From positions 1 through 64,000 of the forward strand of contig JAJCYQ010000013.1 in assembly GCA_029262835.1 (NCBI GenBank): a stretch of DNA of 64,000 nt, in the 5' to 3' direction. The translations under genes were made by a program, and so were the position numbers. This DNA is from Bacteroidota bacterium (lineage in GTDB: Bacteria > Bacteroidota > Rhodothermia > Rhodothermales > UBA10348). The notes under the pieces are model-generated. The model was not told the DNA's origin. It did not search any database and saw nothing but the letters and a program-made list of their open reading frames with translations. Positions 53,983 to 63,692 of the stretch are shown one piece after another; position 1 is the stretch's first letter; each line of letters begins with the position of its first letter.

Positions 53983-55344
53983 TCAGTTTCGGGAGCCTTC
54001 GCCCATCTTTCCCTTGTCCACTTTCTGTTCGACACCCTCGTTGAAACGCCTCAGGGCATCTTCAACGGAGCGGCGTCGTTCTTCGAGCAGGTTGTCCGCA
54101 TTCATGCGGGCCATGCGGGTCCGTATGGGATCGACCAGACGCACCTGGATGGCAATTACGAGTTCTTTCTGTGTGATCTGCTTCTGGGACTTACCGAACA
54201 CGTACTTCAGTCCAAAGAACCAACCCGGAAGATCCTTCAGGATCGGAACACCGCTACGCGATATCGTCTCATCAGTGCTGTAAAGACCACCAATAATGGT
54301 CTGTTCGCCATCCAGAAGTACTACCTGTGTCGTCGCCTTGCTACGGTCAATAATGGCACCGGCTGCCGACGGACGGCTTCCCGACTTTTCCACCTCGACA
54401 TCGAGGTGTATAAAGTCCATGACTGGTGACCCCAGGGTGTCGGCCAGCGCTTCCTGGATCAATGTCGGCGTGACGTTTACGATAATACCCGTCTTGAAGA
54501 GCTCTGTGACCGTGTTGCCCGAGAAATCGCGGATCTGAATAGGCACATCCGAGCCAATCTGCAGATCCCCTTCCACGCCACTCTGCACCGTAACCGATGG
54601 ATTGGCTACCGTCTCGCCGATTCCCTCTGCCTCAGCGACGCGGAACAGCCGGTTCAGATCGGAAAAGTTGATCTGATCGGGTGTTTCCAGCACATCGTCG
54701 AAACTCGAAAACAGCTCTTTGGTCTTCAGCGATACGCTCAGGCTGTTCTCCGAGCCTTCTCCGCCCCCACCGCCGCCACCGGTTGCGGCCGCGTTGGCAC
54801 CCGTGCTGCCAAGAATGACGCTCCAGTCAATACCCGACTGCTTTGCCTTCGTATGATTCACCTCGAAGAGGATGGCATTGATCTCGATCTGCCGCGTATC
54901 GAGGCCCGCCAGTTCACTTACGACGAGGGTTTCCGATCGCTGGGGGCCGGCATCGGCCAGGAGCGATTCATTACCCCTGATGGGAGCATCCTGCGGCGCT
55001 TCGCTGACCAGGAAATAGCGCTCCGTCTCACGAAAGACCATGCCATTCTGCTGCAGGACGAGTTCCAGCGCGTCCATGAAATGCATGCCGGAAATGGACA
55101 ATCCGATCGGATTTGTCCGACTCTCGGTGTCGATCACTTCCTTGCCTGTTGCCCGCTTGAAAATGGGGTTCAGGAACTCGATAAAAGTGTCGAACGGTGT
55201 AGACGGCAGGAACGAGACCAGATGCTCGGGCGGAATGTAGGTGCGAATCTGACGCTGGGCAACATCCTGCGCCACGGCAGGAGTTGGGGCCGTCGCGACC
55301 ATGGCGGCGAGGAGGATCAGAAGGTATGCGGCGGTTTTTCTCAT
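53983..55344 (-). CDS. secretin (PilQ/GspD-like)
   Basis: Signal peptide; INAILFEVNHTKAKQSGIDWS; VANPSVTVQSGVEGDLQIGSDVPIQ; TGIIVNVTPTLI; LLDGEQTIIGGLYSTDETISRSGVPILKDLPGWFFGLKYVFG. Confidence 0.9.
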   Translation of the reverse strand: MRKTAAYLLILLAAMVATAPTPAVAQDVAQRQIRTYIPPEHLVSFLPSTPFDTFIEFLNPIFKRATGKEVIDTESRTNPIGLSISGMHFMDALELVLQQNGMVFRETERYFLVSEAPQDAPIRGNESLLADAGPQRSETLVVSELAGLDTRQIEINAILFEVNHTKAKQSGIDWSVILGSTGANAAATGGGGGGGEGSENSLSVSLKTKELFSSFDDVLETPDQINFSDLNRLFRVAEAEGIGETVANPSVTVQSGVEGDLQIGSDVPIQIRDFSGNTVTELFKTGIIVNVTPTLIQEALADTLGSPVMDFIHLDVEVEKSGSRPSAAGAIIDRSKATTQVVLLDGEQTIIGGLYSTDETISRSGVPILKDLPGWFFGLKYVFGKSQKQITQKELVIAIQVRLVDPIRTRMARMNADNLLEERRRSVEDALRRFNEGVEQKVDKGKMGEGSRN

Positions 55345-55351
55345 GAGGGGC

Positions 55352-56266
55352 TCACTGTTTCCGTGATGGTGCCAGACGGACCGGACCAACGGCCTGACGG
55401 TAGCTGGCGCCCGTATCCAACATCAATTCAATTTCGTCGGCAATGCCGCCCCTGTTGAGGCGGACCATTACCCGTCCTTCTCTTGGATCGACAGAAATCA
55501 GCGTTCCTAAATAGACTTTATCTCCAGGCTCGAGGCCGACGTACTCTTCGTTCCAGAGGAAAACCGCCTTGCCACCCGCGATCATGGCCAATTCAGCCCG
55601 CTCCACATCTACCAGGTCGTCCGTATTTGGTGGCAGCTCGCTCAGAATGAGGGGTGTGAATGGGTTATCTGACAGCGAAGGAGACGGGTACCAGTCGGCC
55701 GGAATTGCCGGGAGACTTTCTCGATCATCGGCGCTCATTCCTGCTGAACCACCGTAGTAGGCTGTGAGATCGAAGGAAAAGTCCACCATCGATGCGGAGC
55801 CCGCGTCCAGATCCAGATTGTCAACCCGGTAGAGGACGCGTGCATTTTCAATGGTCCAGATCAGGCTGTACAGATCGGTCCACGCAGCCTTGCCCGTCAG
55901 TTCAAACTCGTACCGATTGAAAAAATCGCCTTCCGTGTGACCATCAAACGTAATATCAAACGGGGAGAAGCCGGTGCGGGTGTGCTCGTTGAGGAAACGA
56001 ACCACATCTTCCGAGGAGAGGCTTTTGGGAACCGTCTTGTATCGGGCTTTCCAACGCGTCATGGCTTCTCCCGCGAGCGACTCCGAGACAGATACATCAC
56101 TCATGAGCGCGTCCATTTCGGCGGCTTTCAAGCGGGCCACTTCCTCCGCCTTTTCGAGGCGCTCCATTTCAGCCGGCTGCCGTACGAGCGTCATATACGC
56201 ACCGCCACCGGCCGCTACCAGCCAGCAGAATCCCAGAATCAGAATATTTTGAACAAGGTTGGACAT
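55352..56266 (-). CDS. PilO-like/PilP-like fusion (inner-membrane alignment complex)
   Basis: N-terminal TM + coiled coil + ferredoxin-like region (FDGHTEGDFFNRYEFELTGKAAWTDLYSLIWTIENARVLYRVDNLDLD); C-terminal beta domain (VFLWNEEYVGLEPGDKVYLGTLISVDPREGRVMVRLNRGG) as in PilP/GspC. Confidence 0.65.
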   Translation of the reverse strand: MSNLVQNILILGFCWLVAAGGGAYMTLVRQPAEMERLEKAEEVARLKAAEMDALMSDVSVSESLAGEAMTRWKARYKTVPKSLSSEDVVRFLNEHTRTGFSPFDITFDGHTEGDFFNRYEFELTGKAAWTDLYSLIWTIENARVLYRVDNLDLDAGSASMVDFSFDLTAYYGGSAGMSADDRESLPAIPADWYPSPSLSDNPFTPLILSELPPNTDDLVDVERAELAMIAGGKAVFLWNEEYVGLEPGDKVYLGTLISVDPREGRVMVRLNRGGIADEIELMLDTGASYRQAVGPVRLAPSRKQ

Positions 56267-56276
56267 GTGTGCGGTA

Positions 56277-58103
56277 TCAGGACCCGTTTGTCATGGTATC
56301 GACCGTGGGCATGCCAGATATAAGCCCGTTCTCCTTCCGGGTGTGCGAATCACTCGTTGCCGCCTCCTCTCTGACTTTTTGCCGAAGTAATTCCGCCGCC
56401 TCGGGGAGCTTCAGTTCGAGGCGTATGGACATTTCCCACTCATAGACGGGCCACTCACGAACGCTCGAAAACTCCACGCTTTCGATGATACCATCCAACT
56501 CGGTCGCAAGTGCCACGACCGCGTCGCGCGATACCGCCGTACCCGACAGATCAAGCCGCTCATCTCCAGAATCCTCCGACCAGTCCTCTATCCAGATGTC
56601 GGAGACCCGTGATGTAGCCGTAGACAGACGCTCCATCGTTCGGGACCAGCGATCGCTGCCTACCAACAGGGAATCGAGCACATCGAGCGCTTTTGTAAGG
56701 CCAACCGAACGTGACTGCAGGCTGTCAATGCGGTGCTCCAGTTGATCCAGATCCGCCTCAATCACTGAAGCCGGATAGGAGCCCAATTGGGATCGATAGG
56801 ATATTATGGCAGTCTGCTGTTCGAACCAGGTCGACACGAAAAACAGCGTGGAACCGAACAGGACCACGATCATGGCGGCAACAGGCCACGAGAAGGGTAA
56901 CTGGAATTGCGGTCCGGCGAGCTTGGAGTCCAGAAAGTTGACAGGGTGAAAGGCCGATTTGTACGGTTCCTCCGTGACCGTGCGAAGCGCAGCGGTAGCG
57001 GCCAGCAGAGTCTCCCGATCCAATGGGCGCGATATCTGCTCCCGCAGCACTGGAAGCAAGGTCCGTACCCGGGCAACCTGTGTTTCCGGGAAAAACTCCT
57101 CGAAGCTGTCTTCTAGCGTATCTTCTCGTTCGTCGCTGAAGAGCCAGATGCAGTCCACGTCTCCCCGGCCGAGTTCATCCTGCAGCAGCAGCACACGGCT
57201 GCAGATGGTTTCGGCTGGATCGAAAACGGTGACCGATCGAAGGTTTTCAACGTGCAGTAGCTCGTTGCCAATCATGAATACCACGATTGTATCGTCGGAG
57301 CCGACCCGGACAATCAACTTGGATGCCTCGGAGTCGTCTCCCGAGTTGGATGCTCCAACAAGTCCAGACAACAGGGTCACTTCAGAATCGACCAGAAGGA
57401 CGTTCGGAAAGCGCCTCTTCCTGTCACGGATGGCACGGAGTGTCGGGGTAACCGGCTCAAACGACTGGGCAAACACGGCCAGACGTGATCGCTCGGACCC
57501 GGGCGTAGAGACCATGGGCAGAAAAGCGGTCCTATCGCCTGCCATTCGGCCATGCTGCGTTTTGCGAAGCAGCTCAAGCAGGAGATCTTTGGATGGATTA
57601 CCTGATCGATCGACCGCTTTCCTTTTTTTTCTGCCCGTCGGGGCTCCGATATCATCTGGGACGTCGACCTGGACGGTATGGGTGTGCTCTGATCCAAGGG
57701 CAAAGGCCACACGCACATTTCCATAACCGGCCGCTTCGCACTCCGCCATGATTTCGAGGGCTTCGAGATCGAATGGTGTCGCGCCATGAGCTGGTACAGT
57801 GAAATCTGCCCCGCCCACGTCCGTGGCCTCTCCACCGTCATCTACGCTGAATTCCGATGCCAGAAAAAGGGAATTGTCCCGCGATTCGCCGTCGGTCAGC
57901 GTGAAAGAAAAGTCCGTGCCAGATTCGTCATTCAGTCCAGGAGAATCAATATCTGCCCCGGAGAAATGCCCTGACGTGCGGGAACGATGGAACGTACGCA
58001 CCAACTCGGGCCCGTCAGATGTATTGTGCAGGAGAACTGCTGCCACATCTGTGGCCGAAGCTGCATACCCGAGAATGTATTCCTGTGATTTCTTGAGCTT
58101 CAT
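56277..58103 (-). CDS. PilM-like/PilN-like fusion (GspL-like)
   Basis: N-terminal actin-like fold region (YILGYAASATDVAAVLL; NVLLVDSEVTLLSGLVG); central TM (WPVAAMIVVLFGSTLFFVSTWF); PilN-like C-terminus (RWSRTMERLSTATSRVSDIWIEDW..LDLSGTAVSRDAVVALATEL). Confidence 0.65.
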   Translation of the reverse strand: MKLKKSQEYILGYAASATDVAAVLLHNTSDGPELVRTFHRSRTSGHFSGADIDSPGLNDESGTDFSFTLTDGESRDNSLFLASEFSVDDGGEATDVGGADFTVPAHGATPFDLEALEIMAECEAAGYGNVRVAFALGSEHTHTVQVDVPDDIGAPTGRKKRKAVDRSGNPSKDLLLELLRKTQHGRMAGDRTAFLPMVSTPGSERSRLAVFAQSFEPVTPTLRAIRDRKRRFPNVLLVDSEVTLLSGLVGASNSGDDSEASKLIVRVGSDDTIVVFMIGNELLHVENLRSVTVFDPAETICSRVLLLQDELGRGDVDCIWLFSDEREDTLEDSFEEFFPETQVARVRTLLPVLREQISRPLDRETLLAATAALRTVTEEPYKSAFHPVNFLDSKLAGPQFQLPFSWPVAAMIVVLFGSTLFFVSTWFEQQTAIISYRSQLGSYPASVIEADLDQLEHRIDSLQSRSVGLTKALDVLDSLLVGSDRWSRTMERLSTATSRVSDIWIEDWSEDSGDERLDLSGTAVSRDAVVALATELDGIIESVEFSSVREWPVYEWEMSIRLELKLPEAAELLRQKVREEAATSDSHTRKENGLISGMPTVDTMTNGS

Positions 58104-58107
58104 GGTC

Positions 58108-59406
58108 CTATGCCAGTTTAGCAAGACGACGTTTATTGTTCGCGTACGCCATGGCTGTGTCGGGAGTGATATGGCCCTGCCGCATCAGGCGGAATAGATC
58201 CTGTTCCAGTGTAATCTGGCCCTGACTCCATCCCTCCCACATCATTTGATAGATCTCGCTCGTGTTTCCATTCTTTACTGCTGCGGTGGCCTGCGGGGTC
58301 ATCCACATTACTTCCTTCGCAAGTATTCTACCTCCGCCCCGCTTCGGGAGTAGTTTCTGGGAAACAATGCACCGAAGCACATCGCCCAGCCGTTGGCGCA
58401 CGCGGTCCTGCTCCTCGGTAGCATATTCTGCTATGATCCGATCAATGCTCTCCACGGCCGATGACGTGTGCAGCGTGGAAAAAACCTTGTGACCGGAGTC
58501 TGTGATTTCCATGGCCGCCGTTATGGTCTCTGGATCCCGCATCTCACCAATCACAACGATATCCGGGTCCTGCCGAAGAGCCTGTACAATACCATCTTTG
58601 AAGGTGGGCACATCCACACCGACCTCGCGATGACGGATCATGCATTTTTTGGATGCGTGCACATACTCAATCGGCTTCCCGATAATCACGACGTGACCAT
58701 CGGACGTCTCATTGTTCGCGTCTACAATGGCATCGAGCGTCGTGCTCTTACCTGATCCGGTTACACCCGTAATGAGCGTCAGGCCGTCTCGTACGTGATT
58801 GAACAGGAGGCCTTTTTCAATGACCGGATGGAATCCGATGGAACGAAGCGTGCGAAGGTCTTCCGAGACGGCGCGCATATTCAGGACGAGGTGACCCAGA
58901 TCCAGGTAGGCCGAGGCGCGAAACCTTCGTTTTTTCCTGCCTTCGTCCAGACTGATTTCATACGAGAAGTCAGCAGCGTGCCAGGATAGCAGACTTTCAA
59001 TACCGGATCGGGTCAGGAGGTTCAGGATCAGCAGCGCGCTTTCGTCGACCGTAAAGGTTCCAGGCTCGGGATCGGGCCTCTTGTGCCCATCAACGCGGAA
59101 CCAGATATACCCGTTGCTGCTGACGCCACCCATATCCATGTCCGAAGCATTCATTACCGCCATGCGCGTCAATTGGCGGTCAAGGAATGTCCTCAATGCG
59201 GCCCGGTCTTCCAATTCCATTTTTTTGATCTGCTCGACGTGGTATCGAATGCGTTCCTCTCCGAGCAATAATTCGGGCGTATTCGCAGCCAGTGCCTGCA
59301 CAACGGGCGGCAGCCCGTCGCCACGGGAACGTTCCGGCGTCGGTGACCACCCGGATCGAGAGGGTCCGCGCGTCGTTCTGGATGTATGCGTTATTGGTTG
59401 TTCCAC
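58108..59406 (-). CDS. PilT-like secretion/retraction ATPase
   Basis: Walker A GVTGSGKSTT, Asp box/Walker B DPDIVVIGEMRDPETITAAMEITDSGHKVFSTLHTSSAVESIDRII (PilT-like HTSSA). Confidence 0.88.
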   Translation of the reverse strand: MEQPITHTSRTTRGPSRSGWSPTPERSRGDGLPPVVQALAANTPELLLGEERIRYHVEQIKKMELEDRAALRTFLDRQLTRMAVMNASDMDMGGVSSNGYIWFRVDGHKRPDPEPGTFTVDESALLILNLLTRSGIESLLSWHAADFSYEISLDEGRKKRRFRASAYLDLGHLVLNMRAVSEDLRTLRSIGFHPVIEKGLLFNHVRDGLTLITGVTGSGKSTTLDAIVDANNETSDGHVVIIGKPIEYVHASKKCMIRHREVGVDVPTFKDGIVQALRQDPDIVVIGEMRDPETITAAMEITDSGHKVFSTLHTSSAVESIDRIIAEYATEEQDRVRQRLGDVLRCIVSQKLLPKRGGGRILAKEVMWMTPQATAAVKNGNTSEIYQMMWEGWSQGQITLEQDLFRLMRQGHITPDTAMAYANNKRRLAKLA

Positions 59407-61102: not shown

Positions 61103-62647
61103 TTACTTCAGCGCACCTTCAACGGACCGCTGAACGACGACAGCATTCGCTCCGATATCCACCTGCTCCAGCAGCTCTCGCAGCGGGCGAAGAGCCGCCG
61201 TCGAGTACCTGATGTTCGTGTTGTCCCGCAGTGTGATGCGAAAAGCACCGCCTTCTTCCGTCTCCACATCCGCTTCGCACGCGCCTTCTGTATCACCGTG
61301 GCCGAGATGGGCCGGGAGCGCCGACGATCCAATGGTCAGCGTGTGGCGATTGGCCGGATTGCCAGGAGGAATGTGGCATACTTCGACAATGCTGTCTGGC
61401 GCACCGCCCTTGTCGGATTTCTTGCTCTTGCCAGACTTGTCGCTCTTGTCAGACTTGTCGCTCTTGTCCGACTTCTTGCTCTTGTCCGACTTCTTGCTCT
61501 TGGAGCTCTTGCAAGATTTCTTGCTCTTATCTGACTTGTCGCTTTTTGCAGACTTATCAGACTTTTTGCTCTTGTCCGACTTGTCACTCTTGTCCGACTT
61601 GTCGCTCTTGTCAGACTTGCCCGACTTCTTGCTCTTGTCAGACTTGTCGCTCTTGGCGGACTTGCCCGACTTCTTGCTCTTGTCCGACTTGTCCTCTACG
61701 CACTCTTCCTCGTCGCCTCCGTCATCATCGTCCGATCCGCCGTCAGATACATCAAGCGCCGATCGAAGTACGACCGAGCCATAGACGGCAGAGTCGTCTT
61801 CAAATGTGTGGATACCACCCTCGGCATTGTTGCCATAGACCATCCCGTACCACACGGAATTATCTTCAAATGTAATGTTTCCTGATGCATACAGGACGCC
61901 ATAACCGGAGAAATTCCCACTCAACTCAACGTTTCCGCGGATACGTAGCACTTTTGGTGATGCGATGCTGCCCAACGTACCGCTGCTGTAGGACGTACTT
62001 CCACTCACGTCCACGAGGGCGTCTCCAGAGTAATTCAATATGGCCGACTCCAATTCGTCAAGCGATGTCAGCGGATTGCCATTCACAATATCCAGCTCGC
62101 CCTCCGAGCCGACGACATTATCCCTGTCCGCTTCGGAAAGCGTTGTATTGAACGCCGACGTGTTAGTGACCAGTATACCGCGCACATGTGGCCCCACCGC
62201 ATTCGTACCATCAAGAGCAGCATCGACGCCCGAGACATAATAATTGTCGCGGAAGTCAAGGGAGGTCACTGGACCGTCGATCGTCATCGCGTCAAAGAGT
62301 CGCTGCCCCCCCTTCTCCATGGACCCGGAAATTCTGTACTTGAATCCGTCATACTTCCCGGTGGCGGTGATTACAACCTCTCCGCCAGCACCCGTGGAAG
62401 CAGAGACATCATATTTGGCATCCCGGTACTTGACGTTGGATTCGGAGTCACGATAGCCGTCAAAGTCCCTCTTGACCCGTCCTACGACTACGTTGAACGC
62501 GGACTGGGCCGCTTCCCGGGCCAATACCTGTCCCTCATAGTCGGCTTCGACCTGTTGCTGGTTCAGCAGTGTCTCGTCGCGCGAAATGTACATGGCCGAC
62601 GCCGCGAGCGTCGTTCCGAGTACGATCAGTAATACGGCCTTACCCAT
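61103..62647 (-). CDS. PilX-like pilus protein with DKS/KKS repeat tract and CHxPPGNP module
   Basis: N-terminal hydrophobic helix MGKAVLLIVLGTTLAASAMYIS; beta-rich region VLRIRGNVELSGNFSGYGVLYASGNITFEDNSVWYGMVYG; (DKS/KKS)n; VCHIPPGNPANRHTLTIGSSALPAHLGHGDTEGAC. Confidence 0.65.
   Translation of the reverse strand: MGKAVLLIVLGTTLAASAMYISRDETLLNQQQVEADYEGQVLAREAAQSAFNVVVGRVKRDFDGYRDSESNVKYRDAKYDVSASTGAGGEVVITATGKYDGFKYRISGSMEKGGQRLFDAMTIDGPVTSLDFRDNYYVSGVDAALDGTNAVGPHVRGILVTNTSAFNTTLSEADRDNVVGSEGELDIVNGNPLTSLDELESAILNYSGDALVDVSGSTSYSSGTLGSIASPKVLRIRGNVELSGNFSGYGVLYASGNITFEDNSVWYGMVYGNNAEGGIHTFEDDSAVYGSVVLRSALDVSDGGSDDDDGGDEEECVEDKSDKSKKSGKSAKSDKSDKSKKSGKSDKSDKSDKSDKSDKSKKSDKSAKSDKSDKSKKSCKSSKSKKSDKSKKSDKSDKSDKSDKSGKSKKSDKGGAPDSIVEVCHIPPGNPANRHTLTIGSSALPAHLGHGDTEGACEADVETEEGGAFRITLRDNTNIRYSTAALRPLRELLEQVDIGANAVVVQRSVEGALK
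61429..61695. repeat. 9-bp-periodic low-complexity repeat encoding DKS/KKS/GKS triplets
   Basis: TTGTCGCTC / TTCTTGCTC / TTGTCCGAC units. Confidence 0.95.
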
Positions 62648-62726: not shown

Positions 62727-63302
62727 TTAATTCTGCAATCCAATAGGGCGGATGGTAATTCCCCAATGCGACTGGAATACGCTCGATCCGTTGTCCTCTC
62801 CGAATGGATACACATTCACGAGCGTCGCCCGTACCAATCGTGCGCTTCCCGCCGAAAGTGTGACATTTCCGTCTGAATCGAGCATGTCAAGGGCAAAGAA
62901 GCGTACCCGCTCGCCCCCTCCACCTGCCCAGACGTCATTCTCGAACCGGTCCAGCGTATAGAGCTGAACGGAATCGCCACGGACAACGACCTTGTTGCCA
63001 GCCGACAGGCGATAGGTCACCTCCATGTCCGCCCCGCCGGCATCCTGTTTCCAGAACTCGAATACGGTGGTCAGTCCATCGGCATTCGTCTGCACGTCTG
63101 TGACGGTATCGGCGGTCCCGTTGCCGAGAGCAGCCAGATCCTCCTCAATCGAGACCCCTGTTTGCAGCGTGGACTGCTTGGATGCATAGGCTATCGTCTG
63201 CTCCACGGCCGAGCGCTGTGCCTGGAATTGCGTTGACAGCACGATGAGGATGACGGCCGAGCCGATCATGATGGCCGATATGTTGTCGAGGATGAGCTGC
63301 AT
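62727..63302 (-). CDS. pilin-like/pseudopilin-like protein
   Basis: N-terminal hydrophobic helix (ISAIMIGSAVILIVLSTQFQAQRSAVEQTIAYASKQ), beta-rich C-terminus; clustered with neighbours. Confidence 0.5.
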   Translation of the reverse strand: MQLILDNISAIMIGSAVILIVLSTQFQAQRSAVEQTIAYASKQSTLQTGVSIEEDLAALGNGTADTVTDVQTNADGLTTVFEFWKQDAGGADMEVTYRLSAGNKVVVRGDSVQLYTLDRFENDVWAGGGGERVRFFALDMLDSDGNVTLSAGSARLVRATLVNVYPFGEDNGSSVFQSHWGITIRPIGLQN

Positions 63303-63692
63303 TTATTCGGAGAAGATGCGGCTGTGAACGACAAGAGGCATGGTGAAATGATCGTTCGCGGCCGTGACCTCTACTTCCTGCTGTGAGGTGGGGACGCCGC
63401 TCGGGTCCCCGTCGTCGTCAACGTATTGCACGACGATGGTGAGCGTAAAGTCCTCGTTCAAGTCTCCTGCCGCGAAGGTCGCCACGATCGTGTCGCCGTC
63501 CAGGTCGTCCAGGTCATCGAAATCAGTCCCGACGGCAATTATCTCCATACGCTCAATCACGACCGCATTCGCCATGAGTTCGTACTCGGAATGCACCATC
63601 TGCTCGTATACGGCTGCTTTTGAGCCCATCTGATTGTAGGCGGCAATCGACGCGATCATCATCGCGAGGAAGGCCATCAAACTTTGTGGCAT
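63303..63692 (-). CDS. pilin-like/pseudopilin-like protein
   Basis: N-terminal hydrophobic helix (MPQSLMAFLAMMIASIAAYNQMGSKAAVYEQM), 1-bp from the next CDS. Confidence 0.5.
   Translation of the reverse strand: MPQSLMAFLAMMIASIAAYNQMGSKAAVYEQMVHSEYELMANAVVIERMEIIAVGTDFDDLDDLDGDTIVATFAAGDLNEDFTLTIVVQYVDDDGDPSGVPTSQQEVEVTAANDHFTMPLVVHSRIFSE

Follow-up and report, generated by a model that had tools for sequence, protein, structure and literature searches.

Gene content of the locus

The window (the whole stretch of DNA analysed here, 64,000 nucleotides) comes from a Rhodothermales-type genome and carries a cassette of three pilin-like genes on its minus strand, as are all window features given below. 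The largest member encodes a PilX-like protein of 514 aa (61103-62647 with the stop codon), a reading frame confirmed at the coordinates of the earlier note and supported by orthologues and homologues. Two smaller pilin-like genes lie upstream. The first encodes a protein of 129 aa (63303-63692), placed by gene order as in locus L108 and matching a 161-aa protein marginally (E 0.011); the second encodes a protein of 191 aa (62727-63302) that resembles the 202-aa cassette protein of L108 (E 7e-4). Downstream, past a subtilase gene, come pilus-machinery genes: a PilT/PilU-family ATPase (58108-59406; T2SSE 6e-34, pilT_fam 304.5 bits vs a curated cut-off of 319.1), a PilN-like protein with a weak match (56277-58124; PilN E 0.024, below cut-off), a membrane-anchored protein in the PilO position with no family match (55352-56266) and a secretin (53983-55389; PF00263, 9.6e-26). 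The 514-aa protein is in this way co-encoded with other pilins and with type IV pilus machinery. The subtilase (PF00082, 59559-60896), which separates the PilX-like gene from that of the PilT-family ATPase, has about five VLDRYK repeats in tandem in its pro-region.

We divide the PilX-like protein into five parts. Residues 1-296 (61760-62647) form the scaffold, with an N-terminal membrane helix, a long helix and a beta-solenoid-like region, as delimited by homologues (DUF7305) and the structural model. An acidic stretch follows (residues 297-318, 61694-61759), and then a D/K/S tract of 95 aa (residues 319-413, 61409-61693; K39, S32, D18 and few others) with a net charge of +21. Next comes a CH...HxxHGD...C module in its CHIPPGNP form (residues 421-458, 61274-61387), predicted to fold as beta-beta-alpha; the module runs from V423 to C457, then EEGGAFRITLRDNTNIRYSTAALRPLRELL. 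The C-terminal scaffold segment (residues 465-514, 61106-61255) is kept in homologues with and without the insert. The protein has four cysteines: C316 in the acidic stretch just before the tract, C379 within the tract, and C424 and C457 in the module. The earlier note on this DNA had described the tract as a flexible charged stalk, which agrees with its lack of predicted structure. The same KKSDKS tract occurs in another protein of this genome (L035, G000:C33:801-3887), which has a beta-propeller, TSP3 repeats and a T9SS sorting domain.

The protein probably belongs to the PilX/GspK family, judging by context and distant similarity rather than by a direct family match. The sequence shows a hydrophobic N-terminal helix and, after it, a globular domain, with helices at 4-16 and 25-66 in a low-confidence model. 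Searches of Pfam and NCBIfam gave no pilin family match to the protein, and none significant to PilX or GspK; no prepilin peptidase motif was found in it (no N_methyl match), and the classical prepilin motif is absent from the whole window cassette, which lowers the case for a PilX/GspK-type protein. GspK-type and atypical pilins may differ in this motif. The PilX-like nature proposed in the earlier note is nevertheless upheld by the type IV pilus neighbours, by DUF7305 in scaffold homologues and by homology to another pilin cassette (below).

Among the matches listed, the nearest named relatives are L096, a 'Bacteroidota' MAG of the same genus, and L135, a Rhodothermales MAG of the same family. 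The orthologue in L096 keeps every part of the protein, including counterparts of all four cysteines. The dN/dS between the two comes to about 0.07 in the module and 0.03 in the C-terminal segment, against about 0.3 in the tract, the fastest-evolving part; these values are rough, given that synonymous sites are near saturation. Since this orthologue keeps every part, with low dN/dS in the module and the C-terminal segment, the combination of tract and module is not a product of chance. The module is present in all four genomes of the genus examined, one of which has only a contig-end fragment of the gene. The cysteine pair around the tract is also kept in a more distant relative (L038), so the stalk may be looped.

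A variable insertion at one site of the scaffold

Scaffold homologues were found in 17 of 27 genomes of the family, and their alignment reveals a fixed insertion site between YGAVVLRS and the F.I...I.YS..AL segment. This site holds just 2, 4, 9, 13 or 18 residues in five homologues (L049, L045, L060 twice, and L061). Others carry an insert of about 170 aa or more, GGHFDVDVF...YHEHQYDD, which in L039, L041, L043 and L053 is accompanied by the module and mostly acidic tracts. The D/K/S tract together with the module is found at the site in the window protein, L037 and L038.

DUF7305 (PF23981) matches the insert-less homologue L061 above threshold (29.8 bits vs a cut-off of 27) and also matches the module-bearing PilX-like proteins of L126 and L138; weaker matches occur in L060 and in L045, where the match (260-331) spans the insertion site. 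The window protein itself, whose domain is interrupted by about 170 residues, has no DUF7305 match.

The insertion claimed in the earlier note thus holds at the sequence level, given homologues with 2-18 aa at the same site and others with other domains there. Separate terminal domains, the outcome named as contrary to it, are not what the relatives display: the C-terminal segment is shared with and without the insert, and insert-less homologues together with variable inserts at one fixed site give that alternative no support. Structure prediction, which had been suggested as a check, gave a confident module and a poor whole-protein model (mean pLDDT 43), in which the linker 300-417 is unstructured and the best scores fall on the module and the beta region; a fold search with this low-confidence whole-protein model returned only noise. 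A D/K/S stalk with the module, inserted into a PilX-like scaffold, is the arrangement supported by these comparisons.

Conservation, fold and spread of the module

Conservation was counted in 136 distinct modules aligned by profile search. The first Cys is present in 135/135, the adjacent His in 135/136, the HxxH pair in 133/136 and 130/135, the Asp in 131/135 and the last Cys in 130/130. The C, H, HxxH, G, D, G and C positions are near-invariant (96-100%), as expected from the earlier proposal of a conserved Cys/His pattern in a recurrent secreted module, and all core residues (C-H, HxxH-G-D, G-x-C) are present in the window module. The 'HT' histidine is found in only 83 of the 136, and the same core is kept in 34 forms without PPG. 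Of the CHxPPGNP...HLxHGD motif first described, the CH...HxxHGD...C core was accordingly borne out, while the PPGNP loop and the 'HT' histidine are dispensable in these alignments. The forms include a short one, CHNGKT...HLDHGDTEGAC (L043), and a GDGQPG variant whose last Cys is further along (L024, L031).

AlphaFold, run on 97 module sequences, gave strand-strand-helix with a core pLDDT of about 93, a confidently predicted beta-beta-alpha core for this 36-residue mini-domain. Pfam, NCBIfam and PDB yielded nothing usable for the module alone, for its variants or for a 97-row profile. Full-text literature searches for the motif brought up no relevant paper, nor did those on DUF7305/DUF4900 and on Rhodothermota pili, and neither papers nor structures gave support for a bound metal.

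The module most likely is a disulfide-closed mini-domain, through its two Cys, that perhaps binds metal: the near-invariant H, HxxH and D next to the Cys pair suggest a candidate metal site. C2H2-type zinc fingers share the strand-strand-helix order and the HxxH or HxxxH at the helix end. They differ in that the module's first ligand-like pair is an adjacent C-H in the first strand rather than CxxC, and in that the module is extracellular, with no sequence or fold match in PDB. The CxxC...HxxxH ligand pattern is not found in the module, which has HxxH (rarely HxxxH) at the helix end.

A single scan across species genomes of bacteria and archaea gave at least 387 module relatives. The best 80 of these include members of Bacteroidota, Gemmatimonadota, Myxococcota, Planctomycetota, Chloroflexota, Acidobacteriota, Fibrobacterota, Nitrospirota and proteobacteria, and, among archaea, Nitrosopumilus and others; many are MAGs, so that an individual taxon assignment could be mistaken. 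A survey by phylum detected the module in 34 of 396 genomes (E below 0.001). Recurrence in secreted proteins, as the earlier note had it, is well founded, although its restriction to Bacteroidota was too narrow, given the many phyla and the archaea. Phage records had no module, and plasmid records had three matches, all haloarchaeal.

A simple scan detected a hydrophobic N-terminal segment in 101 of 113 module ORFs, several of the rest being cut at locus ends. The carriers are very different proteins, including lipoproteins, pilins, tandem arrays and many non-pilus proteins; because of the last, the function of the module is not pilus-specific. Neighbours of the stand-alone secreted copies gave no clue to function. 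One lipoprotein (L103, L106, L118, L125, L149) has the module between a GW/NW turn and an [IL][YF][YF]TTFHN segment, which looks like another loop insertion.

The module in other pilin-type proteins

A similar three-gene cassette was found in Ignavibacteriota-type genomes (Melioribacteraceae and Ignavibacteriales by record titles). The N-terminus of its large protein resembles the window protein (E 3e-4), and the module lies near residue 100, between two strands. Module-less paralogues and orthologues, such as the neighbouring 411-aa copy in L108, skip just that stretch. In one related pilin of this type (L198) the module is decayed, with HxxH lost, and in two others (L199, L201) an unrelated stretch of similar length takes its place.

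Elsewhere, the module belongs to a PilX-like protein encoded last, behind prepilin-motif genes (L119, L126, L138), or to two adjoining prepilin-motif proteins near a PilB-type ATPase (L101); some module-bearing pilins sit in classical minor-pilin operons. Pilin-type proteins of about five lineages (that of the window's source, Ignavibacteriota and three further) have the module. Pilins account for 10 of 80 loci, a biased rate since the 80 are those nearest to the query profile among the at least 387. By these gene contexts the pilus link recurs, and the different positions of the module in pilins make it likely that the insertions were independent.

Function of the insert

We take the window protein for a genuine, conserved pilus protein into which a widespread and hitherto undescribed mini-domain has been inserted. 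Its scaffold is of a known kind; the novelty lies in the module and its recurrent use by pilins. In the T2SS, and probably in type IV pili as well, the pilus is capped by core minor pilins. The GspK/PilX core minor (pseudo)pilins resemble the window protein in being the largest of the minor pilin gene set and in having an N-terminal membrane helix, and the relative in L138 matches the GspK model; the window cassette differs from them in having neither a significant match nor the classical motif. GspK, like the window protein, has a big domain inserted into its globular part (PMC7248040), although the window insert is a charged stalk with a Cys/His mini-domain and not the GspK domain. In ComZ of Thermus thermophilus, also a minor pilin, a large extra domain is inserted in the beta sheet; GspK and ComZ are both placed at the tip, and the extra domain of ComZ contributes to binding DNA (PMC7248040). 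That domain differs from the window insert and is likened to it here by description and not by sequence. By analogy with GspK and ComZ, an inserted domain is compatible with a tip location.

We propose, with about an even chance of being right, that the window protein serves as a minor pilin of the PilX/GspK type in a type IV pilus, with an insert that displays a Cys-closed, probably metal-binding mini-domain at the pilus tip. The protein would carry its variable insert at one turn near the end of the beta domain, as a long flexible D/K/S stalk ending in the beta-beta-alpha mini-domain, which would be autonomous. Two Cys would probably close the mini-domain, and the H, HxxH and D side chains would make up a binding site whose likeliest ligand is a metal ion. 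The pilus tip is where such minor pilins are located, and from there the stalk would extend the mini-domain outward, so that it could touch extracellular surfaces or polymers. The absence of a pilin match in Pfam or NCBIfam for the protein, the poor whole-protein model and the many non-pilus carriers of the module weigh against this proposal. We infer the tip location, the disulfide, and the metal and ligand contacts, as we do the roles of the tract as flexible stalk and of the module as binding head.

The leading rival explanation is that the module might be a structural or docking plug, an interchangeable spacer or protein-protein piece that binds no metal and in which the conserved Cys, His and Asp do no more than hold a tiny disulfide fold together. 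The near-constant presence of both Cys fits a disulfide in secreted proteins, and the very different carriers and tandem arrays also speak for a plug; a pure spacer, however, would not need H, HxxH and D at 96-99% through large loop changes, and we consider a plug rather unlikely. The active part could instead be the lysine-rich tract, as a positive tip tail binding DNA or acidic polymers, with the module secondary. The net charge of the tract would suit this, competence pili do bind DNA via positively charged minor pilin residues (PMC12040237), and the inserted domain of ComZ sets a precedent (PMC7248040). However, where relatives have the module at this site, the tract is Asp-rich instead of D/K/S, and S. 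pneumoniae could be transformed without a lysine-rich PilX tail (PMC12040237), which together make a DNA-binding tract less likely. The tract is also the part that evolves fastest (by the rough dN/dS of about 0.3) and is common to the unrelated beta-propeller protein of the same genome, and we find this explanation distinctly improbable.

An export or sorting signal would be hardly credible. In Bacteroidota the module is often just before a C-terminal region like a T9SS sorting domain (L085, L090, L094), but it falls in the N-terminal, middle and C-terminal thirds of proteins (21, 28 and 35 of 84), and this varied position led us to reject the role; it occurs moreover in tandem, and its carriers include archaeal proteins, lipoproteins and pilins, which are exported by different routes.

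Returning to the binding-head proposal, a module that many bacteria and archaea carry in secreted proteins, and about five lineages in pilin-type proteins, suggests an undescribed surface-binding unit. Tentatively, and at somewhat less than an even chance, we extend this to an undescribed extracellular metal-binding beta-beta-alpha family, inserted repeatedly and independently into pilus-capping subunits as a ligand-binding unit of the tip. Since this widespread secreted module has no family entry in the libraries searched, a functional unit may have gone unread in many surface proteins. That it recurs in type IV pilus gene sets, among the large pilins, offers a direct handle on what such pili, which belong to mostly uncultured bacteria, bind.

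A CHATGS...H..H..GDIIPAP..GC variant is found in the same Chloroflexota proteins as the CHIP[PS]GN module (L129, L144), and a wider superfamily is possible on account of this sharing. One Bacteroidota protein (L156:8432-10141) has about a dozen modules in tandem.
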